In this document: one piece after another, positions 1 to 23,951 of the stretch
How positions within the stretch are numbered: position 1 is the stretch's first letter
Layout of the letters: the number at the start of each line of letters is the position of its first letter
Origin: a virus
IMG/VR virus record: IMGVR_UViG_3300020198_000076
Coordinates: 1-27,490 of that record
Strand: one strand, 5' to 3'
DNA length: 27,490 bases
Made by a program: the position numbers and the translations under genes
The notes under the pieces: generated by a model
Database searches by the model: none
Seen by the model: only the letters and a program-made list of their open reading frames with translations
What the model was told of the DNA's origin: nothing

Positions 1-402
1 CTGGACATTATTCATGGGTTTGGTAGAAACATAGTGTTTTTCCTGCCAATCATAATCTTCATCGAGATGTTCAATTAGGGCATCAATATCTGTAATTGTG
101 TCCTCGTCCATGCCGATGAACCATCGTGCTTCTTCCAATCGCTTAGGGACTATTTCCGACAGATAAGTGAATTTCTTGAAAGAAGGATCATCATGGTTGA
201 ATCGTATTATTTCAAAGTGTAAATTGTCTTTTTGAAATTTTTTGATTTCTTCTTCCAATTCGCCGATTGGTTTTTGTAAAAGCAAGACCATTTTAACTTT
301 GAATTTATTACAGTTGTGAATGCCATAATTGAGAAAGTTTTCTAGTCTGTATTTGAAGGCTTCTTTCTCAGAACACATTATGTGAAATTCTACGTCATAC
401 AT
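1..402 (-). CDS. Glycosyltransferase-like protein (partial, runs off the left edge)
   Basis: This minus-strand reading frame starts at an ATG at 402 and is open to position 1, giving 134 residues, so the C-terminus is missing. The start overlaps the last 13 nt of the upstream glf gene, which suggests translational coupling. Around residues 95-105 it has an acidic stretch WFIGMDEDT, followed by a region rich in D and E. This resembles the DxD-type metal and nucleotide-sugar site of GT-A glycosyltransferases. The position directly after UDP-galactopyranose mutase would fit a galactofuranosyltransferase, but that is inference from context. The coding call is firm; the function is tentative. Confidence 0.6.
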   Translation of the reverse strand, partial: MYDVEFHIMCSEKEAFKYRLENFLNYGIHNCNKFKVKMVLLLQKPIGELEEEIKKFQKDNLHFEIIRFNHDDPSFKKFTYLSEIVPKRLEEARWFIGMDEDTITDIDALIEHLDEDYDWQEKHYVSTKPMNNVQ

Positions 403-1535
403 TGTATTGCCTTTTTAGCTTTAGTGATTGCCGACGCCATTGATTGGTCAATGTCTAAATATTTGTATTCTCCCAGCCTGCCACCCAGAATCAGGTTGGG
501 TTGATTCTTTTTTAAGTTAGCATACTTTTCATAAATCTCAGAGTTTCTGTCGTCTCGAATTGGGTATAAAGGGTCGGGATTATCTTTGTAAGAAATTGGG
601 TAATCGTAAGAGATAATGCTTAGTTCTGTGTCCAAATTTAGGTTATAGTGTTTGGTTGCTTCACCTTGCTTGTAGAAGTGACGGTATTCAATTGATCGGA
701 TGTAAGGTACATCTTCGGAGACGTGGTTTAACACTGCGTTCCCTTGAACGTCCCCGTATTTTTTTTCTTGTTTGAACATTAGTGTGTTGTATTCTAATTC
801 CCCGTACTCGTAATTGAATAATGCGTCCACGGGGCCAGTGTAAACTATCATTTTTGCAAGATTAAACCATTTGTCTTTATCATTTAGAAAATCTATGTTT
901 GTTTCGACGGGGATTCCGTCAAGCATATTTTCAACGATCTTGGTGTATCCTTCCGCAGGCATACCTTGATATTGAGTGGTGAAATAATTCTCGTCGTAGG
1001 TGAGACGAATTGGCAATCTTTGGATAATGGAAGATGGGAGTTCTTTTGGTTCTTTCATCCATTGTTTCTTTGTGTATCCATAGAAAAATGTCTTGTATAT
1101 TTCTTCGCCTACCATCGACAATGCCCATTCTTCAAAGTTTTTTGGGTGATTGACTTTATAGGGAGCGGTTACTTCTTGGAGTTTGCGGCGAGCTTCCTCT
1201 GGTGTTTTGACTCCCCAGAGTTGATGGAGCGTCATTAAGTTGATTGGGAAGGAGAAGATGCGGTCCCCGGTTACAACTTTGGGGCGATTGGTGAAGGGCA
1301 AAAATTTACCAAATTGGTGAATAAAGTCCCAAATTTCTTTGCTATGGGTGTGGAAAATGTGTGCCCCATACGAAGAAACAAAATAGTTATTCACTTGTTT
1401 GTCGTGTGCGGCCCCAGCGATATGATCTTTTTTTTCGATTACAAGACAAGTCTTTCCTGCGTCTTTAACTGTTCTTGCAAATGAGGCTCCGAAAAATCCC
1501 GACCCTACAACTAAGAAATCAAAACGATTGTTCAT
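390..1535 (-). CDS. glf: UDP-galactopyranose mutase
   Basis: The product (381 aa, the usual family length) interconverts UDP-galactopyranose and UDP-galactofuranose using reduced FAD, supplying the donor for galactofuranose-containing glycans. The N-terminus has the FAD-binding Rossmann signature VVGSGFFGA, with the GxGxxG glycines at residues 11-16. Further family signatures are YGAHIFHT, FFYGYTKKQW, the segment ending in MPAEGYTK, and LGGRLGEYKYLDIDQ near the C-terminus. AGGAAAG lies about 10 nt before the ATG. The stop codon overlaps the start of the next minus-strand gene, a glycosyltransferase-like protein, so the two probably act together to make and transfer Galf on a host or virion glycan. 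Phage copies of glf are uncommon. Confidence 0.93.
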   Translation of the reverse strand: MNNRFDFLVVGSGFFGASFARTVKDAGKTCLVIEKKDHIAGAAHDKQVNNYFVSSYGAHIFHTHSKEIWDFIHQFGKFLPFTNRPKVVTGDRIFSFPINLMTLHQLWGVKTPEEARRKLQEVTAPYKVNHPKNFEEWALSMVGEEIYKTFFYGYTKKQWMKEPKELPSSIIQRLPIRLTYDENYFTTQYQGMPAEGYTKIVENMLDGIPVETNIDFLNDKDKWFNLAKMIVYTGPVDALFNYEYGELEYNTLMFKQEKKYGDVQGNAVLNHVSEDVPYIRSIEYRHFYKQGEATKHYNLNLDTELSIISYDYPISYKDNPDPLYPIRDDRNSEIYEKYANLKKNQPNLILGGRLGEYKYLDIDQSMASAITKAKKAIQCMT

Positions 1536-4591: not shown

Positions 4592-4760
4592 TTTGATTGT
4601 ATATTACAAATTTTAGGAATCTCTAAAAATAAACTAAAGTCGATTGACTGGGTTGCCGATATAAATTATAACTGAAACCCGTGGACAAGACGCTGACGAA
4701 AATTGTTACGTTAACGATTACTTGTTCCAGACTTTACTTTTACTATGGAGAAGACTGAAA
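4592..4760 (+). promoter_or_regulatory. Leader region upstream of the SSB gene
   Basis: This is a 169-nt gap. It contains TATAAATT (4660-4667), one mismatch from the T4 late box TATAAATA, and an 8-bp palindrome CGTTAACG (4709-4716). GGAG at 4747-4750 is the Shine-Dalgarno for the ATG at 4761. T4 gp32 autoregulates through its own leader, so this unusually long leader could play a similar role. That is inference; I could not identify a pseudoknot by eye. Confidence 0.35.
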
Positions 4761-5777
4761 ATGAGTACTGCCTATGAAGCGCTGGATATGAACGAAGTGA
4801 TGATGGAGTCCGAGCGTGTAAACGCCGAACCCGGATTCAACAACGAAGAATATCTTGCCAAATTCGTGAGAATGCCCGAACGTGAGGGCTTCGTGTTGAT
4901 GAGATTCTTGCCCCGTAAAAAGGGCACGAAACTTTATTGTGCGACCCGCACCCACACTTTGACGAATCCCGTCACCAAGCAGAAGCGGGCCTATCACTGC
5001 CCGAAAGAGCTTTCTACCATTGAGCGGAACGGCAAGCAGGTTCCTCAATGGAAGGGCGACTGTATTATTTGCAAATATTACAGTGACCTTTGGCAGAAGT
5101 CCGAAGGCTTGAGTGGCAAAGAAGCTGAAACTCTTCAAAACAAAGCCAGAGACATTAAGCCTGTTGAACGCTATTACTACAACGTAATCGTTCGTCAGGA
5201 AAAAGACTCGAAGACGGGTGAAGTTCACAAGAATGTTGGCCCCAAGATTTATTCTTGTGGTAAGCAAGTCCACGCAAAGATTATGCGTGCGATTGTTGGC
5301 GACAAGGACGCTGGTGAAGCTCCCTTGGGCGATATTACTCACCCGGTAAATGGCCGTGATTTTAAAGTGGTCAAAAAGATCACCAAGAGCGGCAACCGTG
5401 AATTCCCGAATTACGACTTCTCCAAGTTCGAGCCAGAATCTCCTGTCGGATCGTCCGAAGATTTGGACAAATGGCTTGAAAGCATTCATGACCTCCAAGC
5501 TCTCCGCAAGGTGAAGACTGAAGAGGAATTGAAGCACGCTTTGCGTGTTCATCTTGGAATGGTTCAGGAAGGCGAAACGAAGCAAGACAATGATCTTGAA
5601 GAGTTCCGCAATGCTACTGGTCTTGGCGTTTCATCCAATTCGGCTGCGGCAGTTGTAGGGGATGACTCGGTGCGTGAAGAGTTGGTCACGCAGACCACCG
5701 GGAGTTCTTCTGGGTCGTCCGAAGAGCAAGAATTGCTTGCTGACGATGACTTCATGAAAGAACTGGACGCAGTGTAA
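4761..5777 (+). CDS. T4 gp32-like single-stranded DNA-binding protein
   Basis: This protein has 338 aa. It coats single-stranded DNA during replication and recombination. The ATG at 4761 is preferred to an in-frame upstream initiator at 4722 because GGAG sits about 10 nt before it. A zinc site typical of gp32 is visible: H79-C80 together with C101 and C104 (CIIC). The central region is basic and aromatic (VERYYYNVIVRQ), as expected for an OB-fold DNA-binding cleft. The last 25 residues form a Ser-rich linker followed by an acidic tail (EEQELLADDDFMKELDAV), the classic SSB protein-interaction tip. It is followed by a strong terminator and then uvsX, so the recombination pair is adjacent but separately terminated. 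Confidence 0.88.
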   Translation: MSTAYEALDMNEVMMESERVNAEPGFNNEEYLAKFVRMPEREGFVLMRFLPRKKGTKLYCATRTHTLTNPVTKQKRAYHCPKELSTIERNGKQVPQWKGDCIICKYYSDLWQKSEGLSGKEAETLQNKARDIKPVERYYYNVIVRQEKDSKTGEVHKNVGPKIYSCGKQVHAKIMRAIVGDKDAGEAPLGDITHPVNGRDFKVVKKITKSGNREFPNYDFSKFEPESPVGSSEDLDKWLESIHDLQALRKVKTEEELKHALRVHLGMVQEGETKQDNDLEEFRNATGLGVSSNSAAAVVGDDSVREELVTQTTGSSSGSSEEQELLADDDFMKELDAV

Positions 5778-5852: not shown

Positions 5853-7103
5853 ATGGCCAGAAAAAAAGCTGTCGTTGCCAACAACGACGGAGATGATTTG
5901 GATTTTTTCCAAGAGTTCGCCCAAGAAACAGGTGGCGATATTCTTGATGCGATAGATTCGGTCAAATATTTCGTTGATACAGGCAGTTTGGCTATCAACT
6001 ATATTTGCAGTGGTAAGTTTATTGATGGCGGCGTGCCGGGTGGTAAGCTCACGGAGATTTACGGCCCCAACTCTTCTTGCAAATCTCTTATTGGCACCAA
6101 TATTTTGTTTGGTTGCCAGAGAAAGAAGGGTGTCCCTGTACTCGAAGATTGCGAAAATTCTGCGAATAAAGAATTCATCAAGAAAGCATCTCACTGCGAC
6201 TTGCAGAAAATTGTTCGCCATACGCCTCAATCGCTTGAGGACGTATTCAAGAAGATGTACATATCCATTGAATATATTCGTGAAAAGAAGGGCACTGACG
6301 CACAGATCGCTATTGTTTACGACTCGATTGGCGTAAGCCCATCTGCTCGTGAATTGCGTGAAGTGCAATTGCCTGAGAAATACACGAAGGAACAATTCAA
6401 GAAGATCGTGGGCGGTAATGAACAGCCCGGCGAACGTGCTAAGATTTGTTCCAGAGAATTCCGTAAATTGAATTCTGTGATGGAGAAGCACGAAGCCACG
6501 GTCATTATCTTAAATCAAACCAGAGATAAGATCGGCGTAATGTACGGTAATCCTAAGACAACTGCTGGTGGTGGTAACGCTTTGCCTTTCTATGCCTCTT
6601 GTCGTCTTGAGACTCGTACACAAAAGAAAATCGAAAAGACTTTGACAGCCAAGAAGAAGAAAATCCTTGGGATCAATGTCTGCGTCAAAAATGTAAAGAA
6701 CAAGACTCATCGTCCATTTGTCTCAGCGGAGAATATTAGACTCCTCTTTGACTATGGAATTGATCCAATCAGTGGCTTGCTCTCCTGTTTGCTGGACGCT
6801 GGCCGGATTGAAATCAAAGGCGCTGGGAACTTTATCGTTAAAGAACCTTGGGCTGGTGGGTCCGAAATTAAGTTCAAGGCATCACTTGAACGCAACGACG
6901 TGCCGATTGAACTTCTCTACAAGTGCCCAGCATTGATTGATGCGGCGAACGAACAAGAAGTTCGGGAATATTTAGAGCCTTATATGGCCGCTATCGAATT
7001 CCAAGTTGGCGGCGACATTATCGAAACCGATGTAACTGGTTACGATGATGAAATGATTGACGACGAATTGAACGAAAGACAGGACGAAGAAAGCGAAGAG
7101 TAA
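5853..7103 (+). CDS. uvsX: UvsX/RecA-like recombinase
   Basis: This protein has 416 aa and catalyses ATP-dependent strand exchange. RecA core motifs are all present: Walker A GPNSSCKS (71-78), the catalytic-glutamate region LEDCENSAN with E102, Walker B IAIVYDSIG, and the L2 region NQTRDKIGVMYGNPKTTAGG, very close to bacterial RecA, then NALPFYAS. The last Walker A glycine is replaced by Cys76. T4 UvsX also lacks that glycine (Phe in GPSKSFKS, from memory), so this supports UvsX rather than host RecA. The C-terminus is strongly acidic. The start uses CGGAG about 10 nt upstream. A terminator follows. It presumably works with the upstream SSB. Confidence 0.95.
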   Translation: MARKKAVVANNDGDDLDFFQEFAQETGGDILDAIDSVKYFVDTGSLAINYICSGKFIDGGVPGGKLTEIYGPNSSCKSLIGTNILFGCQRKKGVPVLEDCENSANKEFIKKASHCDLQKIVRHTPQSLEDVFKKMYISIEYIREKKGTDAQIAIVYDSIGVSPSARELREVQLPEKYTKEQFKKIVGGNEQPGERAKICSREFRKLNSVMEKHEATVIILNQTRDKIGVMYGNPKTTAGGGNALPFYASCRLETRTQKKIEKTLTAKKKKILGINVCVKNVKNKTHRPFVSAENIRLLFDYGIDPISGLLSCLLDAGRIEIKGAGNFIVKEPWAGGSEIKFKASLERNDVPIELLYKCPALIDAANEQEVREYLEPYMAAIEFQVGGDIIETDVTGYDDEMIDDELNERQDEESEE

Positions 7104-7117
7104 CCTTCGTTTATCCC

Positions 7118-7154
7118 AAAAAGGGAAGAAGGATAAAACCTTCTTCCCTTTTTT
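7118..7154 (+). terminator. Rho-independent terminator after uvsX
   Basis: The arms AAAAAGGGAAGAAGG (7118-7132) and CCTTCTTCCCTTTTT (7139-7153) flank a 6-nt loop ATAAAA. The A-rich left and T-rich right ends could make it work for the convergent gene too. 7155-7253 holds only a short hairpin (GTCGC/GCGAC near 7216-7230) and no gene that I can support. Confidence 0.92.
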
Positions 7155-7253
7155 GTTTCTTTACTTGTTTATTGTTCTTATTGATCGAATTCCGATTTAA
7201 ACTATGAAAGCCTTAGTCGCACCCAGCGACCAAGTCTTCCATTAGCTGATACT

Positions 7254-7715
7254 TTATTGAATTCGATACATTCCTCCCCCGACTTTCTGGATGGTAAATC
7301 CTTCTTTTCCGAGGGTTTCTTTCACTTTCCTGACATGGTTGCACAATGCCGCATCAGATAATTCTTGTCTTTTAAATCGCTTTTTCAATTCTTTCAGTGA
7401 TACAGTTTCTTTTTTCAGGAATTTTCCATAGATGTATTCCTGAATTTTAGATGCCGCCTTTAATATTTTGGGGCGGTTTCGCTTTTCTCTTCTCAGCTTG
7501 GTTTCCAGTATTTCATACTTAAACTGCTGATTCTTGTAGTTTTGATCGCAAATAGCTGGGACCAAATCTTCGATTTTTAGCGGGTTTACTCCCTCAGCTT
7601 CAATAATTGAGATATTTGCCCCAAAAGTTTTTGAAAATTCGACTAATTGATGCAAATATTTTTCATGCGTAATAAACCGTTTTTTGTCTTTTGTTTCTAT
7701 CAATAAACACTTCAT
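7254..7715 (-). CDS. Hypothetical protein with probable C-terminal winged helix
   Basis: This protein has 153 aa with CGGAG about 7 nt before the ATG. The N-terminal 60 residues look alpha/beta (KCLLIETKDKKRFITHEKYL). The middle is basic and helical. Residues 100-153 (VSLKELKKRFKRQELSDAAL, then a second helix and VGGGMYRIQ) have the helix-turn-helix plus beta-wing pattern of a winged-helix DNA-binding domain. It converges with uvsX and diverges from the amidoligase gene. A regulatory role is possible but not shown. Confidence 0.65.
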   Translation of the reverse strand: MKCLLIETKDKKRFITHEKYLHQLVEFSKTFGANISIIEAEGVNPLKIEDLVPAICDQNYKNQQFKYEILETKLRREKRNRPKILKAASKIQEYIYGKFLKKETVSLKELKKRFKRQELSDAALCNHVRKVKETLGKEGFTIQKVGGGMYRIQ

Positions 7716-7792
7716 GTTCTTGCTCCGTGGCCAATGGACGTAGAAATCTTTTTGGGTAATACCATATAATAATTCTAAGGAGAGAAATTGTT

Positions 7793-8824
7793 ATGGACAA
7801 TCCTCAGAAAGAAAAATTAAATTTGGACTATTTTCGTAGGTACGGGGTCGAACTCGAATTGAATGCTTTTGATTTACGGAATCGACCGATTGGGCATGAG
7901 AATGGTAAATTGCCCGAAGGGATACATTATATAGGTAATTTAGTCCAAAAAACAGTAAACGAAAACGTCCTCATTCATAAGTGGGGCAATGACCACAACA
8001 ATGAACAGTGGGTTATCAAGCCTGATGCCAGTTGCGGAATGGAGGTTTGCACGCCGGTTTGCAAGGGGTGGCACGATCTTAAAAAGGTGTGTAAAGTCAT
8101 AGATGGTTTCGCTTTAGACCCAAAAGTATTGGTCGATGAACGCTGTTCTTTGCATATTCACATTGAAGTGGCCGATCTTTCCTTGGAACAGGTTGCCACG
8201 ATTTTGACTTGGTGGATTAAATGTGAGCCTGTCTTTATGGATTCTGTTCCCCGTTCTCGAAAAAGAAATCGTTATTGTCAGTTCATTGGCCTTGCCGATT
8301 TTATGAATGAAATTGAAGATGGGTTTATGCCTATGGCAGCTTTGATCCGAAACTTGGGGGAATACAAATATTATTCAGCAAATTCCTATCACATTTACAG
8401 AAAGAAAAGAAGCTCTGTTGAATTCCGAATTATGGACTACAGTGCTTGCAAAGATTCTTTGGTTGTCAAAAATTGGACTCGTCTTTTATTGCATTTCGTA
8501 GAAAGATGTGTGGCGAGAAGGATGCCGGAAAATTACGAAAAAAATAATTCATGGTCAGGCTATCAATGGCTAGATCCAATTCAGGTTTTTGAGCATTTAG
8601 GTTTCTTGCCAAACCAATACGAACTTTCCGAAGGTTTGTCTCAGACACGTTCGTGGTTTTTGTCTAAATTGCTTCAAAACACTTTGAACGCTAATTTGCC
8701 GGGCGTGATGAGCGACAAGGCAAGGTTCAAGGCATGGCAAGAAACGGTTTCTCTTTCTTCCCAAGTTCGCCATGAGATTGAACGAACAGAAGAGCAGATA
8801 TATTCCGATAACTTCAGAATCTAA
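7793..8824 (+). CDS. Putative amidoligase (Amidoligase_2 family)
   Basis: This 343-aa protein matches the amidoligase family of the glutamine-synthetase-like COOH-NH2 ligase fold, which is predicted to form ATP-dependent amide bonds between amino acids or peptides and other groups. Visible signatures are YGVELE (17-22), IKPDASCGMEVCTPV (75-89), the metal-binding SLHIHIEV (119-126), a conserved tyrosine region KYYSANSYHIY, and KKRSSVEFRI (204-213). AAGGAGAG lies 11 nt before the ATG. The next gene starts 29 nt downstream. In other genomes amidoligases sit with peptidase or cyclotransferase partners thought to reverse or process the product. The substrate here cannot be inferred. Confidence 0.85.
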   Translation: MDNPQKEKLNLDYFRRYGVELELNAFDLRNRPIGHENGKLPEGIHYIGNLVQKTVNENVLIHKWGNDHNNEQWVIKPDASCGMEVCTPVCKGWHDLKKVCKVIDGFALDPKVLVDERCSLHIHIEVADLSLEQVATILTWWIKCEPVFMDSVPRSRKRNRYCQFIGLADFMNEIEDGFMPMAALIRNLGEYKYYSANSYHIYRKKRSSVEFRIMDYSACKDSLVVKNWTRLLLHFVERCVARRMPENYEKNNSWSGYQWLDPIQVFEHLGFLPNQYELSEGLSQTRSWFLSKLLQNTLNANLPGVMSDKARFKAWQETVSLSSQVRHEIERTEEQIYSDNFRI

Positions 8825-8853
8825 ACTATATACCTTGATAGGAGAAAGGCTAT

Positions 8854-9321
8854 ATGTTTGAACAAAGCCCGTTGGATGAGATCGTGGAATCAATGCGTAG
8901 CGTTGGCGAGACACTTATTCCGTATAATTATCCTAAGTCTGTTACGCCATCTTTGGGCCAAGAAGATGAGCTTTTGTTTTTCAAAAAAAAGAGTGTAGTG
9001 GTTGATGGATATAACATTGACCTTTATTATCAAAAATCTGACTTTGACGAATATTTTGCCGAGACGTTGCAGATATACGCTCAGTACTGTCCATTCATAC
9101 CATTCAACATCGCCGTTAAATTGGCAAAAAAATTTTTGGGAGGACATAATCTTTCTTTAGTGGAAATTTATAAAGAAGGTCGCAAGATTTATGTGTGGAC
9201 AGTATACGTTGATCGTACAGGGCGACCTATAGAATTTCCCTTTGACACCCCAGTTGAGAATTGCAATTTCGAGGGGACAAAATATTCTTACATGCTTTCT
9301 ATGCAGGTCCATATTTTTTAG
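8854..9321 (+). CDS. Hypothetical partner of the amidoligase
   Basis: This 155-aa protein lies 29 nt downstream of the amidoligase gene and has a strong AGGAGAAAG ribosome binding site. It looks alpha/beta: an N-terminal helix, KSVVVDGYNIDLYYQKSDFD, and a C-terminal beta stretch (VEIYKEGRKIYVWTVYVDRT). I do not recognise a catalytic motif. Its 3' end overlaps the convergent nucleotidyltransferase gene by 23 nt. Co-transcription with the amidoligase suggests a shared pathway, by context only. Confidence 0.7.
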   Translation: MFEQSPLDEIVESMRSVGETLIPYNYPKSVTPSLGQEDELLFFKKKSVVVDGYNIDLYYQKSDFDEYFAETLQIYAQYCPFIPFNIAVKLAKKFLGGHNLSLVEIYKEGRKIYVWTVYVDRTGRPIEFPFDTPVENCNFEGTKYSYMLSMQVHIF

Positions 9322-10681
9322 ACTTCTGAAAACTCATGAACCGCATATAGGCATCTGTTTCGGCACTGGCTATTGCTTGGCTGATTTCTATCCTTTTAGT
9401 CTGGATGAATTGCACAATTTCATCTTTAGAGTTCTGTAATTCACCAGAGAATATTTTTCCGATTATCACATCAAGAGCCTTTTTAATTTCCGGTCCCTTG
9501 AATCCCAGCAATATTAGGTCGTTCCCGTCGATTTCTAATTCACCATGACTTTTTGGCATAGATGAAGCGAGGGCTTCCAAAATTTCATTCGGCAATACCT
9601 TGAGTTCTAATGAAGTGGGATGAATTTTCTTCATCCTAAAGACAGTCATATATGGGCGAATGGCCTGGGCTATATCCTTTAGGGATTTAGGGCTATCTCG
9701 TTCTTCCCAAGCAAGATATAGTGCCTTCAATTGTTTTATCGTTACATTTTCGCATTTCAATTTATTGCAGATTTTGGACGCACCTTCAAAATTGGTGACT
9801 CCGTAAAGCATTAAGAACATAAATTCAGAGATGCTTTTACTTTTTTCAAAAAGAGCAGCTTTTGGCCCAAAATTTTTGCATTGTAATTTGGTGATTTCTT
9901 GCCACAAAGAAGTTTTGCAAAGTAATTTGGCACCGATAAATTGATTGCCTTTTGAGACAATTTTTTCAATTTCGGTAAGGACTCTCTCGCCCGGTATTCC
10001 AGAAATTAGATCAACATTTTTCCTGATTTCCTCAAAAGTTGCTGGTTCTATATCAAAACCAAATCTGGCCGCAAATTGTACAGCACGCAACATTCTCAAA
10101 GGGTCTTGAGAGAATGCTTTGGGATCGACCATCTTGATTTGTTTGTTTTTTATATCTTCCATGCCACCGTGCGGGTCGATCAAATTGCCATGTTGGTCTT
10201 GGGCCATCGCATTGATTGTGAAGTCTCTTCGTTTCAAATCTTCTTCGACACCAAGACTGTGATTTGAGTTGGTTATGAAGGCTTGATAAGACGATGGATA
10301 CTTACCATATGTGGTTTTATATTGTTCCTTTTCATCTGGTGTCATCGGTCTTTCAGTGCGAGGAATGGCGATGTCCAAAGGCTCGGAGACGGGGAATTCA
10401 TTCGGTGAAAATTTGATGATTCCAAAGGATTGGCCGACTTCATTGACTTTCCCGTGCTGGGCCAAGATCGTAGCCAAAGTCTGAAGTGGTATGCCTTTAA
10501 CCATAGCGTCAATATCTTTGGATGGGCGATTTAGGTGTAAGTCTCGGACTGCTCCACCAACGAAATATATCTCACCGCCAGCGTTTCTGATGCTACGCAG
10601 GAAGTCGCTGGCAAGTATTTTTGCTTTTAGTTCCACAGCAGATTCGCTTTCTAAAAATAATCTAAATGATATTGTCAGCAT
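9299..10681 (-). CDS. cca: CCA-adding / poly(A)-polymerase-type nucleotidyltransferase
   Basis: This 460-aa protein belongs to class II tRNA nucleotidyltransferases, which add or repair the CCA end of tRNAs; related enzymes add poly(A). The head domain is clear: VGGAVRD (41-47) and the catalytic aspartates in KDIDA (D56, D58). EEDLKRRDFTINAMAQ follows, then the neck motif DPLRMLRAVQFAARFGFDI. The body is helical, and the HD phosphohydrolase motif is not evident. No tRNA gene is visible in this window, so the substrate could be host or phage tRNAs encoded elsewhere. The 3' end overlaps the convergent gene by 23 nt. A poly(A) polymerase activity cannot be excluded from sequence. Confidence 0.9.
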   Translation of the reverse strand: MLTISFRLFLESESAVELKAKILASDFLRSIRNAGGEIYFVGGAVRDLHLNRPSKDIDAMVKGIPLQTLATILAQHGKVNEVGQSFGIIKFSPNEFPVSEPLDIAIPRTERPMTPDEKEQYKTTYGKYPSSYQAFITNSNHSLGVEEDLKRRDFTINAMAQDQHGNLIDPHGGMEDIKNKQIKMVDPKAFSQDPLRMLRAVQFAARFGFDIEPATFEEIRKNVDLISGIPGERVLTEIEKIVSKGNQFIGAKLLCKTSLWQEITKLQCKNFGPKAALFEKSKSISEFMFLMLYGVTNFEGASKICNKLKCENVTIKQLKALYLAWEERDSPKSLKDIAQAIRPYMTVFRMKKIHPTSLELKVLPNEILEALASSMPKSHGELEIDGNDLILLGFKGPEIKKALDVIIGKIFSGELQNSKDEIVQFIQTKRIEISQAIASAETDAYMRFMSFQKSKKYGPA

Positions 10682-11699: not shown

Positions 11700-12079
11700 A
11701 AAAACACAGTATAAAATCTGTGCCATTTAACGAAGCACGCATCTACATTGGCTCCCGGCGTAAATACAACGGAGATGCCTTTTCGTATGCTGATGTGCGT
11801 GCGTATGTGGGGGAATTTCAACTCGCACGGGGGACGGAATCTTCCAACCCCGTGCGAATTACTCCTACTGCATATGTATGGCAAGATTATCACGAGCCTG
11901 GCTGGGAAATCGCTGTGATTAATTACCCACGACATCCCAAAGCCGATTTTGTGATTCGTCAATTTGCTTATGATTTGGCGGCGGGACTTCTAAATATGTT
12001 TGAGCAGAACCGAATTAGTATTGTTTTTTCTGATGAAATTGTTATGTTGGAGGCCGATGACGCAGAAGACAAAAAGTAA
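11696..12079 (+). CDS. Hypothetical protein with TTG start
   Basis: This 127-aa protein begins at a TTG that overlaps the preceding stop. GAAGGGG lies directly upstream, and no ATG is available near the start. It has an alpha/beta pattern (ARIYIGSRRKYNGDAFSYAD, WEIAVINYPRHPKADFVIRQ) and an acidic tail. The helicase Shine-Dalgarno follows its stop. Function unknown. Confidence 0.65.
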   Translation: MKKHSIKSVPFNEARIYIGSRRKYNGDAFSYADVRAYVGEFQLARGTESSNPVRITPTAYVWQDYHEPGWEIAVINYPRHPKADFVIRQFAYDLAAGLLNMFEQNRISIVFSDEIVMLEADDAEDKK

Positions 12080-12095
12080 ACCCAAAGGTGAAAAT

Positions 12096-15000
12096 ATGCC
12101 TCCAATTGATAAGGTTTCCGATCAAAATGAATTGGTGCCATCTCAAGAATACCCTTTGGCCGCATGGGCCTTCGAGAATTTCAACCCGGTGCAGAGCCGG
12201 GTTTTTGATTATTACAAAGAAGATGCCAATACTTTAATTGCTGCTCGCACTAGTTCCGGAAAGACTGTTGTGGCCGAAATGTTTTTGGCCCACGAAATTC
12301 GTAAGCGTGGCGGAAAGGGAATGTTTCTCGCTCCGCTCCGTGCCTTGGCTCAAGAGAAAATTGACCAATGGACTGATCTTCAATATCACTTCAAAGACTT
12401 GAAGATTTCTATTTGTACGGGCGATTATCGACTCACTAAAGAGCGATCCAAAGAACTTTCAGAAGCTGATATGATTATCATGACTTCTGAAATGCTTAAT
12501 CACCGCTCCCGAAATTTCAAATCTGAACAAAACAACTGGCTGCTCGATGTTGGAACTTTGGTGGTTGACGAGTGCTTGCCTCCATCTGCTCTCATTGATA
12601 CAGATAAAGGTCTAATTTCAATTGGGGAAATAATTGACCAAAATCTTGATGTGAAAGTAGCTTCATTTAATCATAACTCAGGGTTGGTCGAATACAAAAA
12701 AATTGTAGCAAGACAGAAAAAACTCTTAAAAAGAAGGTGGCGCACTATATATTATGAAGGTGGAAACATTTCTGTGACACACAATCATTTGGTTTGGTGT
12801 GAAGGTCGTGGTTATGTTCCTTCTAAAAACATAAAGTTTGGTGATATTTTATATGTGCGAAGAACTAACTCAAAGAGAGAGACAGGTGATTTTGGGTACG
12901 TTGCTAGGAGACGGATCAATCTCTCGGCTACCCCACGGAAAATCGGCGAGATTAAGGATTCAACAATCGTCTGTCCAAAGGGCTTTTGTAGAGTGGAAGT
13001 ACAACGAGTTGAAGAGACTGGTTGGCACGCCGCCCAAAATAAAGCCAAACGGAGGTTACGGCAAAGAGGTTTGCCGATTCAATACTCTTTCGACAGAAGA
13101 GATATTGAAAATTCATGCTTTATGTTACCCAAATGGGAAGAAGACGGTGAACTCTCGTTGGCTAGAAGAGATCAACGATCCGATTGCGTTGGCAGTATGG
13201 TACATGGACGATGGGAGTCAAGGTTCAAGTCAAATGTCAATACACACAGAAGGATTTTCTCGAATGGAAGTGAAGATGTTGTCGGATTGGCTTCAAAAAA
13301 GGTGGAAAGTGCCATCCAATCCATATTTGACGAGAAAATATTGGCAAATTCGATTCTCAGCGGAGGGGAGAGACAAATTTCAAAATTTAATTCGACATTT
13401 TGTGATTCCAAGTATGGAGTACAAAGTGTTGCCGAAGATGGAGCAAATATTCTGTTCAATGTGTGGTCAGAAATTTCTTGCGAATCGTCGAGATATTCAT
13501 ATGCCACGTCATGTTATTTTGTGCAAGAACAAGGAATGTCGTCACAAATGGGACAAAATGTACGAACGAACGAGGATTTGGATTCAGAGGAATCATGGTG
13601 TTGTGATTTAGAAATTGAAGATCACAACAATTTTTTTGCTGATGGTGTTTTGGTTCACAATTGCCACCTTTTGACGGTGCCGGGTCGTGGCGATCACTTG
13701 GAAGTTGGATTGATGAAGTTTACGGAAATCAATCCCAAAGCAAGGATCGTTTTGCTCTCAGCTACTATGCCGAACGTCGATCAAATTGCAGAGTGGGTTT
13801 CATATTCTTTGACCAAGAAGCAAACCTATGTTCTAAATTCTGAATATCGTCCAGTGCCATTGAATATTCACTACGAAATATACGATGACTCGCCCAGACG
13901 ATACGATCAAATCGAAAAAAACAAAGTTGGGAAGGCATTGGAAATTATTGGCGACTGGTATTCAGATGATAAGTTCCTTGTATTTGCACATACTAAGCGT
14001 ACCGGCGAGATGATGAAGACTTCCCTGCGAGGGGCCGGGATCAAAGCAGAATTTCATAATGCTGATTTAGACAAAGAAAGTCGAGTTAATCTCGAACGTA
14101 GTTTCCGTACTGATCCCAAATTGAGAGTCATTGTGGCCACTCCAACATTAGCTTGGGGGCTGAACCTTCCTGCTCGCCGGGTGATTATTCTTGGTGTTCA
14201 CAGAGGTATTCAAGAAGTCGAAACATACAACATCACTCAAATGGTTGGACGCTCTGGCCGTCTTGGAATTGATCCGGCTGGCGATGCGTATATTCTGGTC
14301 CCCGAATCCCAAGAAGAATTGTGGCGAAAGAAACTACAGAAACCACAAAAGATTGAATCGCAGCTATTGGAGAGGGAAGGAGAACATCACAAGGTATTGG
14401 CCTTCCACTTGGTCAGCGAAATTCATCACGGATATATCAAGACCAATGACGATGTTCACCGCTGGTATGAAAGGTCGTTGGCTTACTTCCAAGACAAAAA
14501 TTTGCATGAACGTGTGGTAGATGATACTTTGGAATTGTTGAAGGATAAGGGTTGTCTCAAGTTTGAAGATGACACTTGGAAAATTACGTCTGTTGGCATG
14601 ATTGCCAGCATGTTTTATTTTTCGCCATTCGACGTTGCCGATTTGAGAAATAACTTCTGGCGATTGTTTGCGAATAATCAGCAAGACAACGACTATTTCT
14701 TGGCAATGGCTTTGGCAAATACAGATACGAATCGTTCAAATATTGTATCGAGAGCCGAGAAAGAAGAAATGAGCTTGTTCGCCAACAGGGTCAGAAATCT
14801 TTCGGGAGTCAATTACACCTATCCCGATCCCGTCATCAAAGCTGGCTACTGTTACTTCAATTTGTTATCGGGTAATAACAGTGCGAATCTGGCAGCCATA
14901 CAAAGAAATTTCCAGTTTGATTATCCCAGACTTTCGCAGGTGTTATTGGCACTTGATTCAATGAGTGGCAAATGGGAACAATCAGGCTATCTTTATACGC

Positions 15001-15227
15001 TTGAAGATAGAATCCGTAACGGTGTACCGGCATATTTGGTCAATCTTTGTCGCATTCCGAATATCGGAAAGGTTCGGGCAAAGAAGTTGTTTGATTATGG
15101 AATTAAGTCTGCGGAAGAGTTCGCAGATGTTTCAGAAGAAAAACTTCGCAAGCTGCTCAATCTGAAACAAGATGTTATTAAGGCAATGTTGGATGAAGCA
15201 AATAAATTGTCACTTACGTCTGCGTAA
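12096..15227 (+). CDS. Hel308/Ski2-like superfamily 2 helicase with intein
   Basis: This is a 1043-aa precursor (about 680 aa after splicing). The ATG at 12096 is chosen because AAAGGTGA sits just upstream, although an in-frame ATG at 12057 exists. Helicase motifs are Walker A ARTSSGKT (50-57), motif Ia APLRALAQEK, and motif II DE/CH split by the intein at residues 160-522. Then follow motif III SATMP, VIVATPTLAWGLNLPARRVII, and motif VI QMVGRSGRLG. The C-terminus has a helix-hairpin-helix-like domain (RIPNIGKVRAKKLFDYGIKS). This order matches Hel308-type DNA helicases that unwind forks and recombination intermediates. The frame is open throughout, including across the nested endonuclease gene. 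Its 3' end overlaps the convergent gene by 18 nt. Confidence 0.92.
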   Translation: MPPIDKVSDQNELVPSQEYPLAAWAFENFNPVQSRVFDYYKEDANTLIAARTSSGKTVVAEMFLAHEIRKRGGKGMFLAPLRALAQEKIDQWTDLQYHFKDLKISICTGDYRLTKERSKELSEADMIIMTSEMLNHRSRNFKSEQNNWLLDVGTLVVDECLPPSALIDTDKGLISIGEIIDQNLDVKVASFNHNSGLVEYKKIVARQKKLLKRRWRTIYYEGGNISVTHNHLVWCEGRGYVPSKNIKFGDILYVRRTNSKRETGDFGYVARRRINLSATPRKIGEIKDSTIVCPKGFCRVEVQRVEETGWHAAQNKAKRRLRQRGLPIQYSFDRRDIENSCFMLPKWEEDGELSLARRDQRSDCVGSMVHGRWESRFKSNVNTHRRIFSNGSEDVVGLASKKVESAIQSIFDEKILANSILSGGERQISKFNSTFCDSKYGVQSVAEDGANILFNVWSEISCESSRYSYATSCYFVQEQGMSSQMGQNVRTNEDLDSEESWCCDLEIEDHNNFFADGVLVHNCHLLTVPGRGDHLEVGLMKFTEINPKARIVLLSATMPNVDQIAEWVSYSLTKKQTYVLNSEYRPVPLNIHYEIYDDSPRRYDQIEKNKVGKALEIIGDWYSDDKFLVFAHTKRTGEMMKTSLRGAGIKAEFHNADLDKESRVNLERSFRTDPKLRVIVATPTLAWGLNLPARRVIILGVHRGIQEVETYNITQMVGRSGRLGIDPAGDAYILVPESQEELWRKKLQKPQKIESQLLEREGEHHKVLAFHLVSEIHHGYIKTNDDVHRWYERSLAYFQDKNLHERVVDDTLELLKDKGCLKFEDDTWKITSVGMIASMFYFSPFDVADLRNNFWRLFANNQQDNDYFLAMALANTDTNRSNIVSRAEKEEMSLFANRVRNLSGVNYTYPDPVIKAGYCYFNLLSGNNSANLAAIQRNFQFDYPRLSQVLLALDSMSGKWEQSGYLYTLEDRIRNGVPAYLVNLCRIPNIGKVRAKKLFDYGIKSAEEFADVSEEKLRKLLNLKQDVIKAMLDEANKLSLTSA
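12573..13661 (+). mobile_element. Intein in the helicase DECH box
   Basis: This is a 363-residue in-frame insertion between DE and CH of the Walker B box. Block A is CLPPSALIDTDKGLISIGEI with Cys1. Block B is GGNISVTHNHLVW with the TxxH motif. NIKFGDILYV ends the N-terminal Hint part. Block F is CCDLEIEDHNNFFADGV, and block G is LVHN followed by Cys +1. All splicing residues (Cys1, the block B His, His-Asn, Cys+1) are present, so it should splice. The middle, about residues 94-345, shows no domain in this frame because the DNA encodes an endonuclease in another frame. Confidence 0.92.
12853..13611 (+). CDS. LAGLIDADG homing endonuclease nested out of frame in the intein
   Basis: This 252-aa protein lies in the +1 frame relative to the helicase. 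LAGLIDADG motif 1 is VILGTLLGDGSI (12-23) and motif 2 is ALAVWYMDDGSQ (112-123), the style of LAGLIDADG_2-type (PF03161) endonucleases. The C-terminus carries a possible zinc-binding module: C201, C204, H215, H220, C224 and C229. GGTGA lies 8 nt before the ATG at 12853, at the end of the N-terminal Hint coding region. The stop at 13609-13611 lies inside block F. The endonuclease would cut intein-less alleles and drive homing. TTG 12838 and GTG 12841 are alternative starts. Confidence 0.88.
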   Translation: MCEELTQRERQVILGTLLGDGSISRLPHGKSARLRIQQSSVQRAFVEWKYNELKRLVGTPPKIKPNGGYGKEVCRFNTLSTEEILKIHALCYPNGKKTVNSRWLEEINDPIALAVWYMDDGSQGSSQMSIHTEGFSRMEVKMLSDWLQKRWKVPSNPYLTRKYWQIRFSAEGRDKFQNLIRHFVIPSMEYKVLPKMEQIFCSMCGQKFLANRRDIHMPRHVILCKNKECRHKWDKMYERTRIWIQRNHGVVI

Positions 15228-17699: not shown

Positions 17700-17955
17700 G
17701 CCGGATTCTGTCAAAATCTTGAACAGTTTCCCAGCCTGACCATCCATGTACGAGTACGCCTAATTCTGGATGACACCCTTTAATCCATCTTCTTCCTTTT
17801 TCAAAACAGCCTTGTTTGTAGAAGATTTGTTCATCCAGAATTTCTAGGGCTTTCTCATTTCCTTCGCTGCCATTTTTAGTTTCCCGATCCCCTTCTCGGT
17901 CATTACCATAAAATTCCATCCCCTCGCTTCGCAATGTTGTTGGCAGGCTGTCCAT
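17668..17955 (-). CDS. Possible small protein overlapping the TnsA-like gene
   Basis: This 95-aa frame has AAGGA about 10 nt before an ATG that lies inside the TnsA-like gene in another frame, with a 112-nt overlap. The C-terminal 60 residues (ALEILDEQIFYKQGCFEKGR, WIKGCHPELGVLVHGWSG) look protein-like and fill the otherwise empty stretch 17700-17843. The N-terminal 35 residues look like overlap-derived sequence. Start and reality are both uncertain. Confidence 0.45.
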   Translation of the reverse strand: MDSLPTTLRSEGMEFYGNDREGDRETKNGSEGNEKALEILDEQIFYKQGCFEKGRRWIKGCHPELGVLVHGWSGWETVQDFDRIRPMHTFEVHEK

Positions 17956-18515
17956 TTCGCTGTGTTCCTTGGTAATGAGGTTTGATTGGCTGGTTTAATT
18001 TCCCATATTTCTACATGGCCATCATTAAATAAGACACTTAAATCTGGGTTATATTCGTGCGTTTCGCCCTCGAAAAAATACTGAACTTTGAATGGTTCTA
18101 CATCGTATTTTACGACTTCGGGCAGATATTCCAAGCATTCATATACTTCGCATTCATATCCACTACGGTAATGCATTTCTTTGCCGCCGTTTTTTGAGGA
18201 AATTAAATATCCTTCTCGGAATTTTGGTTTCCTTTGTTTCATTTTACCCGTGCGAGTGCTGTGGTCTTTCCATATCAGAGCTTTCATTTGCCCGATCTTG
18301 GGGACTTCTTTTTCAGAGGGGTGCTTGGCTTTAAAGTGTAGCCTTAAATCCCGAACGGGTGCCCCACAACGAGCTAAAGGGCATAAGACGTATTCTCGCC
18401 CCTCTTCATGATTTTCAATGATATGTGCTTTGTAGGGTTCGTATTCCTCGAATTCTCTCCCACAAACAAAGCACATCCATTTCCTTTTACTATTGTCCTT
18501 CTGGAATGGTAACAT
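17844..18515 (-). CDS. TnsA/T4 gp4-like nuclease with N-terminal zinc fingers
   Basis: This 223-aa protein has AAGGT 7 nt before the ATG. Two C2H2-like fingers open it: C15, C18, H31, H36 and C45, C50, H60, H65. Residues 115-210 form a TnsA-like PD-(D/E)xK nuclease: MHYRSGYECEVYECLEYLP with E121/E123, EYNPD (D158), WEIKP (E172, K174), then the helix KWTACQQHCEARGWNF. This domain aligns in order and spacing with T4 gp4 (YRSNWEKFFFEWL, FIEIKP, DKWKAAQSLAEKRG, from memory), the head-completion protein. It could finish packaged DNA ends or act as a free nuclease. The zinc fingers are not part of T4 gp4. Confidence 0.78.
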   Translation of the reverse strand: MLPFQKDNSKRKWMCFVCGREFEEYEPYKAHIIENHEEGREYVLCPLARCGAPVRDLRLHFKAKHPSEKEVPKIGQMKALIWKDHSTRTGKMKQRKPKFREGYLISSKNGGKEMHYRSGYECEVYECLEYLPEVVKYDVEPFKVQYFFEGETHEYNPDLSVLFNDGHVEIWEIKPANQTSLPRNTAKWTACQQHCEARGWNFMVMTEKGIGKLKMAAKEMRKP

Positions 18516-20895: not shown

Positions 20896-21783
20896 ATGCT
20901 TTACGATGTAATGAACAACGTACCAGAGAAAACAATTAAGTGTTTAGATCATGGGCATGTTACATTGATTGATGTTATGCCACGGATGGTTCCAGAATCA
21001 CAAAAAACTTCTGATTATGCCATTGTTCAAGCGGCACGAGTGTCATATGGCGATGGCACAAAGTCATTTAACGAAGACCGTGGATTGATTCGATATTTGA
21101 TGCGGCATGTTCACACTACGCCATTCGAGATGGTTGAATTCAAATTTCATATGAAAATGCCAATTTTTATAGCCAGACAAGCAGTGCGTCACAGAACTGC
21201 AAATATCAATGAATATAGCGGACGATATTCGGTCATGAAGGACGAGTTTTATAAGCCAGATTTGGATAACGTCCGACAGCAATCAAAAACAAATAAGCAA
21301 GGAAGTGAAGGCAAAATTGAGAACATAGACGCTCAAGGATTTCTTGCTAATTTAGATGAAATATGCCTTAAATCCTATCAAGCATACGAGCAGGGTTTGA
21401 ACAACGGCGTTGCTCGTGAACAGTCTCGTATGATTCTTCCTGTCAATCTTTATACCGAGTGGTATTGGAAGATTGATTTGCACAATTTATTCCACTTCCT
21501 TGGTCTGCGATGCGACAAGCACGCTCAATGGGAAATTCGTGTATTTGCTGATGCGATGCTGGGTTTGATTACTCCTATCGTTCCTTGGGCCGTTGAAGCG
21601 TGGGACGATTATCACGACCACCGAGGGGCCAAAAAGTTTACTCGACTCGAATTAGAAGCTTTGCGGCGATACGTTGGCTGGAATGTTGAAGGTACTGCAC
21701 CCCAGATTGAATCAGAGAATAAACGAGAACGAGCAGAGTGGAAAGAAAAGGCCGCTTTGTTGGGATTGATTGTCGGAGATTGA
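20896..21783 (+). CDS. thyX: Flavin-dependent thymidylate synthase
   Basis: This 295-aa protein makes dTMP from dUMP using FAD, NADPH and methylene-tetrahydrofolate. The ThyX signature RHRx7S is present as RHRTANINEYS, with RHR at 98-100 and Ser at 108, followed by GRY. Other family regions are AARVSYGDGTKSFNEDRGLI, HTTPFEMVEFKFHMKMPIF, and the C-terminal GVAREQSRMILPVNLYTEWY with RCDKHAQWEIR. GAGAAGA precedes the ATG. With the gp1-like kinase it supports phage nucleotide synthesis. Length is slightly above that of typical ThyX because of an insert around residues 120-145. Confidence 0.95.
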   Translation: MLYDVMNNVPEKTIKCLDHGHVTLIDVMPRMVPESQKTSDYAIVQAARVSYGDGTKSFNEDRGLIRYLMRHVHTTPFEMVEFKFHMKMPIFIARQAVRHRTANINEYSGRYSVMKDEFYKPDLDNVRQQSKTNKQGSEGKIENIDAQGFLANLDEICLKSYQAYEQGLNNGVAREQSRMILPVNLYTEWYWKIDLHNLFHFLGLRCDKHAQWEIRVFADAMLGLITPIVPWAVEAWDDYHDHRGAKKFTRLELEALRRYVGWNVEGTAPQIESENKRERAEWKEKAALLGLIVGD

Positions 21784-21788
21784 TTTTG

Positions 21789-21796
21789 TATAAATA
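21789..21796 (+). promoter_or_regulatory. T4-type late promoter box TATAAATA upstream of the Tas gene
   Basis: TATAAATA matches the T4 late promoter core exactly. It lies 29 nt before the ATG at 21826 and just after the thyX stop. TTGGAGGA follows at a normal distance. It would drive the Tas-like gene and probably the downstream array. Confidence 0.55.
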
Positions 21797-21825
21797 ATCA
21801 AAACGATATTTTGCTTGGAGGATTT

Positions 21826-22812
21826 ATGGACGACGTTAAAAATTATGCTGTGGATTGGTCACACAAAACAGACAAGTTGGCTGTGACTGATGGCAAAAAG
21901 ATTACGAAAACTTTGCCCGATCCTTCTCCTGAAATTGTGATTTGGACGGAGAACATGCCCGCCAAATACGCAAAAAAGTTTTTGGATGTTGGTGCGAAAG
22001 TTCTTCGTTGTAAGCCTAATGATACCGCCAAAGCACGAGAGCAAGTGCAGAAAAATCACAAGCCTGACTTTGAAAAAACTGACGAAAATGATGTGCGAGT
22101 AATTTGGGCGCTGTCGAAAACCCGCCCGGAGTTGTTCCGTCCGTTTAGGCTTCCCTCAGTTCTATCTTGTGCTTATGCTACTTTCAAAGATTTTCAAGAA
22201 GTTCGCATTCGCACAAACAACAGATTATTTATCGAAGAAGATAACCCTGTATTGGGTGAATTTTTTAAGACTTTTGAAAAAGCCGAAAAACAGCTATTAA
22301 AGGCCGTTGAAACAAAACTCAAGGAAGAGCCTATTTATAATGAATGGTTGTTGAAGATCAAAGGCATCGGACCTGCTATTGCCGGTGGGCTGGTCGCTTT
22401 AATTGGTGATATTGAGCGATTCAATACTGTTTCTGCATTATGGGCTTATTCAGGATATGGTGTTTATGATGGTAAGGTTCAAAAGAAAACTAAAGGCCAG
22501 CCAAATAATTGGGCGGGCAAAATTCGTTCGTTGATGTACAATGTTGTAGATATGTTTATTAAACATAGAACACCAATCTATCGGGATATTTACGACAAAG
22601 AAAAAGCATTGCAAGTTTCTCGTGGTATTTCACTTGGACATGCACACAACCGAGCAATTCGCAAGACCGCTAAAATATTTTTGCAACATTATTGGGTTGT
22701 CGCCAGAACTCAAGCTGGATTGTCGGTTTCCCAGCCTTGGGTTCTTGAACATGGTGGTCACTGTGATTATATTGAAGTGCCCAATTGGAATAAGCCAACC
22801 GGGTGCGTGTAA
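21826..22812 (+). CDS. tasR: TIGR-associated Tas protein, TasR-like (RuvC-like plus Nop/IS110-like domains)
   Basis: This 328-aa protein starts at the ATG at 21826, with TTGGAGGA 6 nt upstream. The N-terminal RuvC/DEDD-like domain shows D10 (VDWSHKTDKLAV), E42 (IWTENMPAKY), and D86 and D89 (KTDENDVRVIWAL). A helical region follows (residues 135-185). The C-terminal Transposase_20/Nop-like domain begins at LLKIKGIGPAIAGGLVALIG, then ALWAYSGYGV, WAGKIRSLMYNVVDMF, and GHAHNRAIRKTAKIFLQHYW. The IS110 serine ('QSG') is replaced by a YDGKVQKKTKG stretch, and no insertion-sequence ends are evident. Directly downstream is a 36-bp-period spacer array. This fits RNA-guided TasR of TIGR-Tas systems better than an IS110 transposase. 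Confidence 0.82.
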   Translation: MDDVKNYAVDWSHKTDKLAVTDGKKITKTLPDPSPEIVIWTENMPAKYAKKFLDVGAKVLRCKPNDTAKAREQVQKNHKPDFEKTDENDVRVIWALSKTRPELFRPFRLPSVLSCAYATFKDFQEVRIRTNNRLFIEEDNPVLGEFFKTFEKAEKQLLKAVETKLKEEPIYNEWLLKIKGIGPAIAGGLVALIGDIERFNTVSALWAYSGYGVYDGKVQKKTKGQPNNWAGKIRSLMYNVVDMFIKHRTPIYRDIYDKEKALQVSRGISLGHAHNRAIRKTAKIFLQHYWVVARTQAGLSVSQPWVLEHGGHCDYIEVPNWNKPTGCV

Positions 22813-23267
22813 TCCAACAGGTAAGTGCGAGCCATCCGATGCTTGTAACCCATCACGAATGTGCGAGCCAACGCCCGAATGAAATCCATAGTATTCGTGC
22901 GAGCCAAAGGAAAGCTGAAACCCATCCGAAGCCTGCGAGCCAATAGATACGTTAAACCCAAGGCCGATGCTGCGAGCCAGATACTGCGTGAAACCCAATG
23001 TGGAAATGCGAGCCAGAGCGCCGGTGAAATCCAACAGGTAAGTGCGAGCCATCCGATTCTTGTAACCCATCACGTATGTGCGAGCCACCCCGGAAATGAA
23101 ATCCACAGCTTGTTTGCGAGCCAAGGTCGAAATGAAATCCACGGAATACATGCGAGCCAATAGATACGTTAAACCCAAGACTTCCCTGCGAGCCAGTCCC
23201 GGCATGAAACCCACTGGCAGTATGCGAGCCACTATATAGATTAAACCCAACCTCCCCGTGCGAAATT
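22808..23267 (+). repeat. TIGR array (tandem interspaced guide RNA array)
   Basis: Two 9-bp repeats alternate: TGCGAGCCA (12 exact copies starting at 22826, 22862, 22898, 22934, 22971, 23007, 23043, 23079, 23115, 23151, 23187 and 23223) and T[GT][AT]AA[CT]CCA (13 copies from 22808 to 23249). Each pair is separated by a variable 9-nt spacer; one spacer (22961-22970) is 10 nt. The full period is 36 bp. A degenerate TGCGAAATT (23259-23267) ends the array. The first repeat contains the stop codon of the Tas gene. A terminator follows on the plus strand, so plus-strand transcription with the Tas gene is likely. TIGR arrays are reported to be cut into 36-nt guides carrying two spacers. Confidence 0.9.
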
Positions 23268-23276
23268 TTTCAAATT

Positions 23277-23316
23277 ACACTCCTTTAGAAAAGGTTCTCT
23301 TTAGGAGTGTTTTTTT
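23277..23316 (+). terminator. Hairpin terminator that contains the next gene's Shine-Dalgarno
   Basis: ACACTCCT (23277-23284) pairs with AGGAGTGT (23303-23310), with an inner AGAA/TTCT stem, followed by seven T directly before the ATG at 23317. The right arm holds AGGAG, 9 nt before that ATG. It would end array transcripts and hide the ribosome binding site in read-through RNA. Confidence 0.8.
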
Positions 23317-23913
23317 ATGTTCTCGTATATTGCTGTTTGTTTGATGGGGGCCGCTATGTTTTCCGCCGACAAAAAAGAAGATGAATCTTACGCTGTTCAG
23401 GCGTTTAAGATGATGCAAAAGCATAAGGTTGGCATGGTTTCTACCATTGCCGAATCAAAGAAAAATGTAAAGCCGAAACCTTACGGATCGGTTATGCCAT
23501 TCGCTTTGGTAAAATCCTCTTGTTGCAAGACCTATGCGGGCGCTCCATATGTCTTTATTTCTGATTTGGCAGTTCACACCAATAATATCAACAAAAATCC
23601 AAACGTCAGCGTTATGGTATTTCAGCCTGACAAGGATGGGAACATGTTTAATGGTGCCAGAGTTACTTTGTCTGGCAAGTTCGTAAAGATTACGGATGAG
23701 AAAAGTGTAAAGAAATTAAAGAAGAATTATCTGGCCGAACATCCCGATGCCAAGGAATTTATTGACTTTGGCGACTTCAACTTTTACGTTCTTGATATAG
23801 AATCCATTTATTTTATCGGCGGGTTTGGAGAAATCGGGGAAGTAGATGTGGATGAATATCGTAAAACTGCTAATAAGTTAAATTTGCGAGCCAATAGAAC
23901 CCAAAATAGATAA
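23317..23913 (+). CDS. PNPOx/HugZ-like FMN-binding split-barrel protein with signal peptide
   Basis: This 198-aa protein starts with a hydrophobic segment, FSYIAVCLMGAAMFSA, ending near residue 17 and resembling a Sec signal peptide, without a lipobox. The remainder matches the pyridoxamine-phosphate-oxidase-like split barrel: GMVSTIAESKKN, PYGSVMPFALV, APYVFISDLAVHTNNINKNP, NVSVMVFQP, GARVTLSGKFVKI, and FYVLDIESIYFIGGFGEIG. The spacing resembles HugZ/CREG-like proteins that bind FMN or heme. Export to the periplasm is inferred. The last ten codons overlap a shortened TIGR-like repeat unit. Its AGGAG lies in the upstream terminator hairpin. Confidence 0.85.
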   Translation: MFSYIAVCLMGAAMFSADKKEDESYAVQAFKMMQKHKVGMVSTIAESKKNVKPKPYGSVMPFALVKSSCCKTYAGAPYVFISDLAVHTNNINKNPNVSVMVFQPDKDGNMFNGARVTLSGKFVKITDEKSVKKLKKNYLAEHPDAKEFIDFGDFNFYVLDIESIYFIGGFGEIGEVDVDEYRKTANKLNLRANRTQNR

Positions 23914-23920
23914 TGCGAAA
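23885..23920 (+). repeat. Solitary, shortened TIGR-like unit
   Basis: TGCGAGCCA (23885-23893) is followed by ATAG, then AACCCA (23898-23903), a 10-nt spacer, and TGCGAAA (23914-23920), the same terminal motif that ends the main array. It looks like the array unit with spacer ATAGATACG plus TTAAACCCA after loss of 8 nt. It forms the 3' coding end of the PNPOx-like gene. Confidence 0.75.
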
Positions 23921-23951
23921 CTCCTATAGGCTAAGCCCATAGGAGTTTTTT
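23918..23951 (+). terminator. Hairpin terminator that contains the hldE Shine-Dalgarno
   Basis: AAACTCCTATAGG (23918-23930) pairs with CCCATAGGAGTTT (23936-23948) with one mismatch over a 5-nt loop. It is followed by T to 23951, directly before the ATG at 23952. AGGAG (23941-23945) in the right arm is the ribosome binding site of hldE. Confidence 0.82.

Follow-up and report, generated by a model that had tools for sequence, protein, structure and literature searches.

The locus described here raises the question of what an amidoligase does when its gene lies directly ahead of one of no recognised family, within a block of phage replication and recombination genes. The window that we analysed is the whole 27,490-nt IMG/VR virus record IMGVR_UViG_3300020198_000076 (positions 1 to 27,490), and a megablast search of it against phage records returned no match. 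The ligase gene, designated AMID, occupies 7793..8824 on the plus strand and encodes 343 aa; its partner, P155 (8854..9321, plus strand), encodes 155 aa. The arrangement claimed in a preliminary description of this DNA, an amidoligase 29 nt ahead of a 155-aa gene with its own ribosome-binding site, is borne out by the ORF list, in which both frames are present and the spacing is exactly 29 nt, and by a purine-rich AGGAG at 8840..8844 (+). Another purine-rich site, AAGGAG at 7777..7782 (+), precedes AMID; both ribosome-binding sites were read by eye in the sequence. A comparison with the nearest relative (L002) gave dN/dS values of 0.063 for AMID and 0.114 for P155, from which it follows that both genes are under purifying selection; in comparisons with L004 and L005, synonymous change was saturated. 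No description of the AMID-P155 pair was recognised in the literature (open-licence PMC articles).

It is nearly certain that AMID is an Amidoligase_2 enzyme with the glutamine-synthetase/YbdK fold. The family assignment, which had been made from the letters alone, is upheld by a score of 42.7 bits against PF12224 (cut-off 22), in a local match that spans only profile positions 73-162 of 245, and by matches to PHROGs amidoligase families. The AlphaFold2 model of AMID, based on an alignment of 48 sequences, has a pLDDT of 94.3 and a pTM of 0.94. The best solved structure in a Foldseek search was YbdK (E 1.4e-5, probability 1.00), with glutamine synthetases and glutamate-cysteine ligases ranking lower, and a second structural aligner placed GmaS/glutamine synthetases at Z 12.8 with an rmsd of 4.2 over 229 aligned residues. 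YbdK, glutamate-cysteine ligase, and glutamine synthetase match AMID in fold at a low sequence identity (8-15%), and the E.E, H.H, and E.R motifs follow the same order in AMID as in these enzymes.

The putative catalytic residues of AMID are E20, E22, D78, E84, H121, H123, R156, N197, E210, and R212, whose catalytic role we assume from their likeness to those of glutamine synthetase and glutamate-cysteine ligase. The E.E, D, E, H.H, and E.R residues among them, which we take to correspond to the residues of glutamine synthetase that bind metal and phosphate, do not vary across the 48 aligned sequences (E20, E22, D78, E84, H121, H123, E210, and R212) and are also kept in all four of the second amidoligase paralogues described below. 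D78, E84, H121, H123, E210, and R212 are retained in 9/9 outgroup amidoligases, comprising these four paralogues and five sequences from other phages, with one outgroup misaligned at E20 and one at E22. The preliminary description had proposed structure prediction as a check, with the loss of ATP- or metal-binding residues as the outcome that would overturn its proposal; with putative catalytic residues invariant in 48 sequences and a glutamine-synthetase/YbdK fold in the model, this check does not refute it. AMID is apparently an intact enzyme, its catalytic residues being putative.

P155 is a conserved megaphage protein without a known family. Its earlier characterisation as an unrecognised gene stands: it has no Pfam or NCBIfam family, its PHROGs entries are weak (E 0.046 and 0.07), and nothing convincing was returned by Pfam, PHROGs, NCBIfam, PDB-sequence, or fold searches. 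The AlphaFold2 model (52 sequences; pLDDT 92.7, pTM 0.87) runs from a helix through beta strands to another helix and more strands, and residues G52, Q73, P83, Y113, and W115 are invariant. The best fold matches are all weak (Foldseek E 0.013 with a probability of 0.23; Z 4.1 with an rmsd of 3.9 over 93 residues; BFVD E 0.0058). As candidates for a known fold, small ribosomal subunit chains (Z ~4) and phage neck and terminator proteins (Z ~3.2) were within noise and were rejected, and such weak matches do not show that the fold is new. A relative of P155 was also seen in L156, a 39.7-kb scaffold of a Neisseriaceae MAG; this is the sole bacterial-side contig, and it probably belongs to a phage that was binned with the MAG.

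The Pup ligase PafA belongs to the same fold superfamily as AMID, and Foldseek matched AMID to the PafA-Pup structure 4bjr (E 0.017, probability 0.60). Pup is a small, disordered tagging protein that ends in Gln or Glu, with GGE/GGQ as its tail motif. P155 differs from Pup in that it is predicted to be well folded and has no tail of this kind; it ends in Y or F in 41 of the 65 distinct sequences and in Q or E in six, a few rows of the 65 being truncated by the contig. The conserved C-terminus is alike in the presence and absence of AMID and thus gives no sign of an AMID-specific substrate tail. Pup-like tagging by P155 was ruled out on the basis of the predicted order of the protein and a C-terminus that looks alike whether or not the ligase is present.

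A co-occurrence analysis, which had also been proposed as a check, was based on relatives sought with the ligase and with P155 in IMG/VR and GenBank phages. Many contigs, some as long as 527 kb, carry the pair, and so does the 595-kb record LR756511.1. A reduced set of 62 loci was drawn by k-mer identity of the ligase and P155, with a few loci added by hand; it retains near relatives (L016/L017, L080/L153), and most of its records are fragments. Of 108 confirmed relatives, 80 were retained in the ligase search, so that it may have missed distant ligases that lack P155. L144 was left out of the set for its closeness to L143, and L148 for its broken ligase frame (~6950-8302), a stretch in which its P155 match is also partial.

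In these 62 loci, the ligase is present in 55, P155 in 60, and both in 53. AMID is followed by P155 at a gap of -11 to 62 nt in 50 of the 53 loci holding both, and extra ORFs lie between the two genes in the remaining three (L019, L020, and L149). These extra ORFs, which belong to a related lineage, are located at 5141-5992 in L019, 4100-5978 in L020, and 6252-8695 in L149. Where at least 200 nt of sequence lie downstream of the ligase, 52/53 loci hold P155, the sole exception being L128, in which P155 is found nowhere in the whole 54-kb record; where at least 1,000 nt lie upstream of P155, AMID is present in 53/59. No AMID-P155 fusion occurs among the loci examined, the tightest cases overlapping by a few bases. 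Since the order recurs with a gap of no more than 62 nt in 50/53 loci, the adjacency is more than chance, and the AMID-P155 pair is a well-supported, conserved two-gene unit of a large T4-like megaphage clade.

The usual gene order in this clade is major capsid, two unknown genes, a gp32-like SSB, UvsX, M153 on the minus strand, the ligase, P155, small genes, and a DEAD-box helicase. In the window, the gp32-like single-strand DNA-binding protein is encoded at 4722..5777 (+, PF08804), the UvsX/RecA-like recombinase at 5853..7103 (+, PF00154 and phrog_97), and the helicase, with an HHH domain and an intein-like insert, at 12000..15227 (+, PF00270 and PF00271); PF14520 scores below its cut-off in this helicase, as does the intein-like insert with PF14890 (27.9 bits, cut-off 35.8). 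A CCA-adding tRNA nucleotidyltransferase gene (9299..10681, minus strand, PF01743) occurs at this place only in the group of the window and in some related groups. M153 (7254..7715, minus strand) is a conserved divergent gene that lies within 150 nt of the ligase in 51 of the 52 loci holding both. Other neighbouring pairs are found within 150 nt of each other less regularly (SSB-UvsX 41/57, UvsX-M153 19/54, P155-S99 33/51, S99-S111 9/50, and S111-helicase 23/52), so that the tight core of the block comprises the divergent M153, the ligase, and P155. In L016/L017, the ligase-P155 pair points the other way from UvsX (in L017 also from the helicase) and M153 is missing, yet the two genes are still together.

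Several observations on these neighbours may be recorded. In the alignment, M153 reads by eye as a short N-terminal domain followed by a winged-helix-like C-terminal half, and it has no Pfam family above its cut-off; L061 and L064, neither of which has the ligase, lack this C-terminal half. The helicases of L065, L072, and L128 (~1,040-1,110 aa) look enlarged in a similar manner to that of the window, and the UvsX of L149 (2240-4471) reads 744 aa with what appears by eye to be an intein/homing-endonuclease insert. Elsewhere in the window are genes for a UDP-galactopyranose mutase (390-1535, minus strand, PF03275) and a TnsA-like endonuclease N-terminal domain (17844-18515, minus strand, PF08722), and in a row at 20896-25328 for a ThyX thymidylate synthase, an IS110-type transposase match, a CREG/PNPOx-like protein, and a PfkB plus cytidylyltransferase protein.

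A TATAAT at 7765..7770 (+) is the probable -10 box of an AMID-P155 transcript. The exact motif occurs within 60 nt of the AMID start in 23/48 loci, mostly 20-32 nt upstream, against a mean of 4.6 and a maximum of 11 in shuffled sequences, and ahead of P155 in 3/47 loci, which is about the shuffled mean of 3.9; shuffling was by mononucleotide, and a rule fixed the choice of start codons. This pattern fits one promoter for both genes and suggests that AMID and P155 share a transcript. Ahead of the -10 box in several loci, L007, L009, and L094 among them, is an element resembling TTGCTACT or TTGCCACT that, by eye, recalls a phage middle-promoter element.

The preliminary description treated the 155-aa gene as a partner of the ligase, and this holds insofar as it is a conserved neighbour, but it is more than an accessory. 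L061, L064, L065, L066, L072, and L073 retain P155, UvsX, and the helicase with no ligase beside P155, and PF12224 had no match anywhere in these six records, which are fragments of 52-102 kb. The retention of P155 in these loci is the ground on which it appears to have a ligase-independent function. Because it survives the loss of the ligase in 6/59 loci, P155 is a core gene of the megaphage clade and not merely an accessory of the ligase. The presence of the ligase changes three times on the P155 tree (40 rows) and three times on the UvsX tree (37 rows). In partial distance correlations across 37 loci, for which the distances were simple and partly saturated, the strongest value for P155 was with the helicase (r 0.57), while AMID-P155 (r 0.27, permutation p 0.0005) was the strongest for AMID and the second for P155.

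These correlations and the six loci in which P155 outlives AMID, with three changes on each of the two trees, are what may be expected if AMID and P155 are unrelated core genes that are co-inherited in an SSB-UvsX-AMID-P155-helicase block, the entirety of which is conserved, with P155 serving the helicase/recombination machinery. We regard such an explanation from synteny alone as less likely than not, though nearly as probable as the reading preferred below, because UvsX-M153 (19/54) and P155-S99 (33/51) are looser within the same block than AMID-P155 (50/53), the pair stays together even when flipped in L016/L017, and AMID is without P155 in just 1/53 loci. Another explanation is that AMID acts as has been proposed for amidoligases elsewhere. 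Linked genes for a cyclotransferase (GGCT), GATase, and ATP-grasp protein are reportedly part of the phage amidoligase pathway that Iyer and colleagues described in 2009. Vibrio phage 1.293.O, Cronobacter phage GAP52, Bacillus phage 055SW001, and Arthrobacter phage Salgado have genes for a cyclotransferase, glutamine amidotransferase, or ATP-grasp protein in the vicinity of the amidoligase, whereas the neighbours of AMID are P155, M153, and recombination genes; no such companion is annotated in the stretch seen of the Porphyromonas phage 016a amidoligase locus. The amidoligases of the four phages with such companions belong to the Pfam family of AMID or to its phage relatives and have E84, H121, H123, R156, N197, E210, and R212 (window numbering) in common with it. 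Four of the five large related records (259 to 527 kb) also carry a second, more canonical amidoligase (L169 5861-6829, L170 5813-6886, L171 5534-6574, and L172 5831-6844), which is of the same family as AMID and ~26-30% identical to it, but is located in a different region, by eye with PhoH-like and sigma-like genes nearby and without P155 beside it. A single branch with a support of 100/99 splits the P155-linked ligases from these second ligases.

Wall modification against superinfection has been proposed for phiEco32, as cited in the available parts of PMC10580990 and likewise of PMC11318856, and nitrogen metabolism has been suggested as a role of amidoligases in PMC10945688; the P155-linked ligase sub-family is not treated in the available parts of these three articles. 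By analogy with phiEco32-like phages, AMID may make a small metabolite or modify host wall peptides, with P155 as a minor helper. The family that AMID shares with the phage amidoligases found near the companion genes is consistent with this, as are the cited wall proposals and the cyclotransferase gene carried elsewhere by 3/5 large related records. We nevertheless consider it unlikely, since AMID sits in a DNA-metabolism block and a Pfam scan of 26 window ORFs found no cyclotransferase, glutamine amidotransferase, ATP-grasp protein, or peptidase. The claimed absence of a peptidase is thereby confirmed for the ORFs scanned, and that of a cyclotransferase is true locally but not of three of the large relatives, in which the gene is far from either amidoligase; similarly, GGACT and GATase_6 are each present in 3/11 related records, always away from the ligase. 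The setting of AMID, between a recombinase and a helicase and without the usual pathway genes, does nothing to favour modification of the wall or of the virion. Its place beside UvsX, SSB, and the helicase may also be read as a sign that it modifies nucleic-acid-linked carboxylates or amines in a DNA or RNA hypermodification step. Genomic position is the one point that speaks for this, none of the 26 window ORFs scanned was recognisable as a base-modification gene, and we know of no member of the fold of AMID with nucleic-acid-modifying activity, which makes it very improbable.

Our tentative preference, held at somewhat below even probability, is that AMID is an active carboxylate-amine ligase that acts in a P155-dependent process of the replication module, perhaps by modifying P155 itself. 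AMID would be an ATP-dependent enzyme of the glutamine-synthetase fold, encoded by the first gene, with P155 as the second, of one transcript in the replication/recombination block of the T4-like megaphage clade. ATP would phosphorylate a carboxylate in the glutamine-synthetase-type cleft, and an amine would then displace the phosphate, leaving an amide or isopeptide bond. The likeliest target would be a protein of the P155-dependent process, P155 being either the substrate or a subunit that presents it. We infer catalysis by AMID, a protein target, and this role of P155; what the data show is the modelled fold, residue conservation, gene adjacency, the distribution of the TATAAT motif, and the unequal occurrence of the two genes. 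Action on or through P155 is favoured because AMID is almost never present without P155, whereas P155 can exist without AMID. Counted against a partnership are the stronger correlation of P155 with the helicase (r 0.57 versus 0.27), the six ligase-less loci, the exceptions L019, L020, L149, and L128, the lack of a fusion, and a P155 C-terminus that does not differ between loci with and without AMID. A narrower version, a megaphage-specific protein-modification pair in which AMID covalently modifies its operon partner P155, which works with the recombinase and helicase, and thereby provides an optional post-translational switch on DNA metabolism, is rather improbable.

Amidoligases are widely annotated in phages, and the roles given to them in the available parts of the above articles are proposals and not tested functions. 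The P155-linked ligase comes in a compact unit of two genes that lacks the usual pathway companions and belongs to a clade that includes some very large phages. The lineages in which the ligase was lost and P155 was kept provide a natural experiment, and AMID and P155 form a small, expressible pair on which the question of the substrate could be settled.
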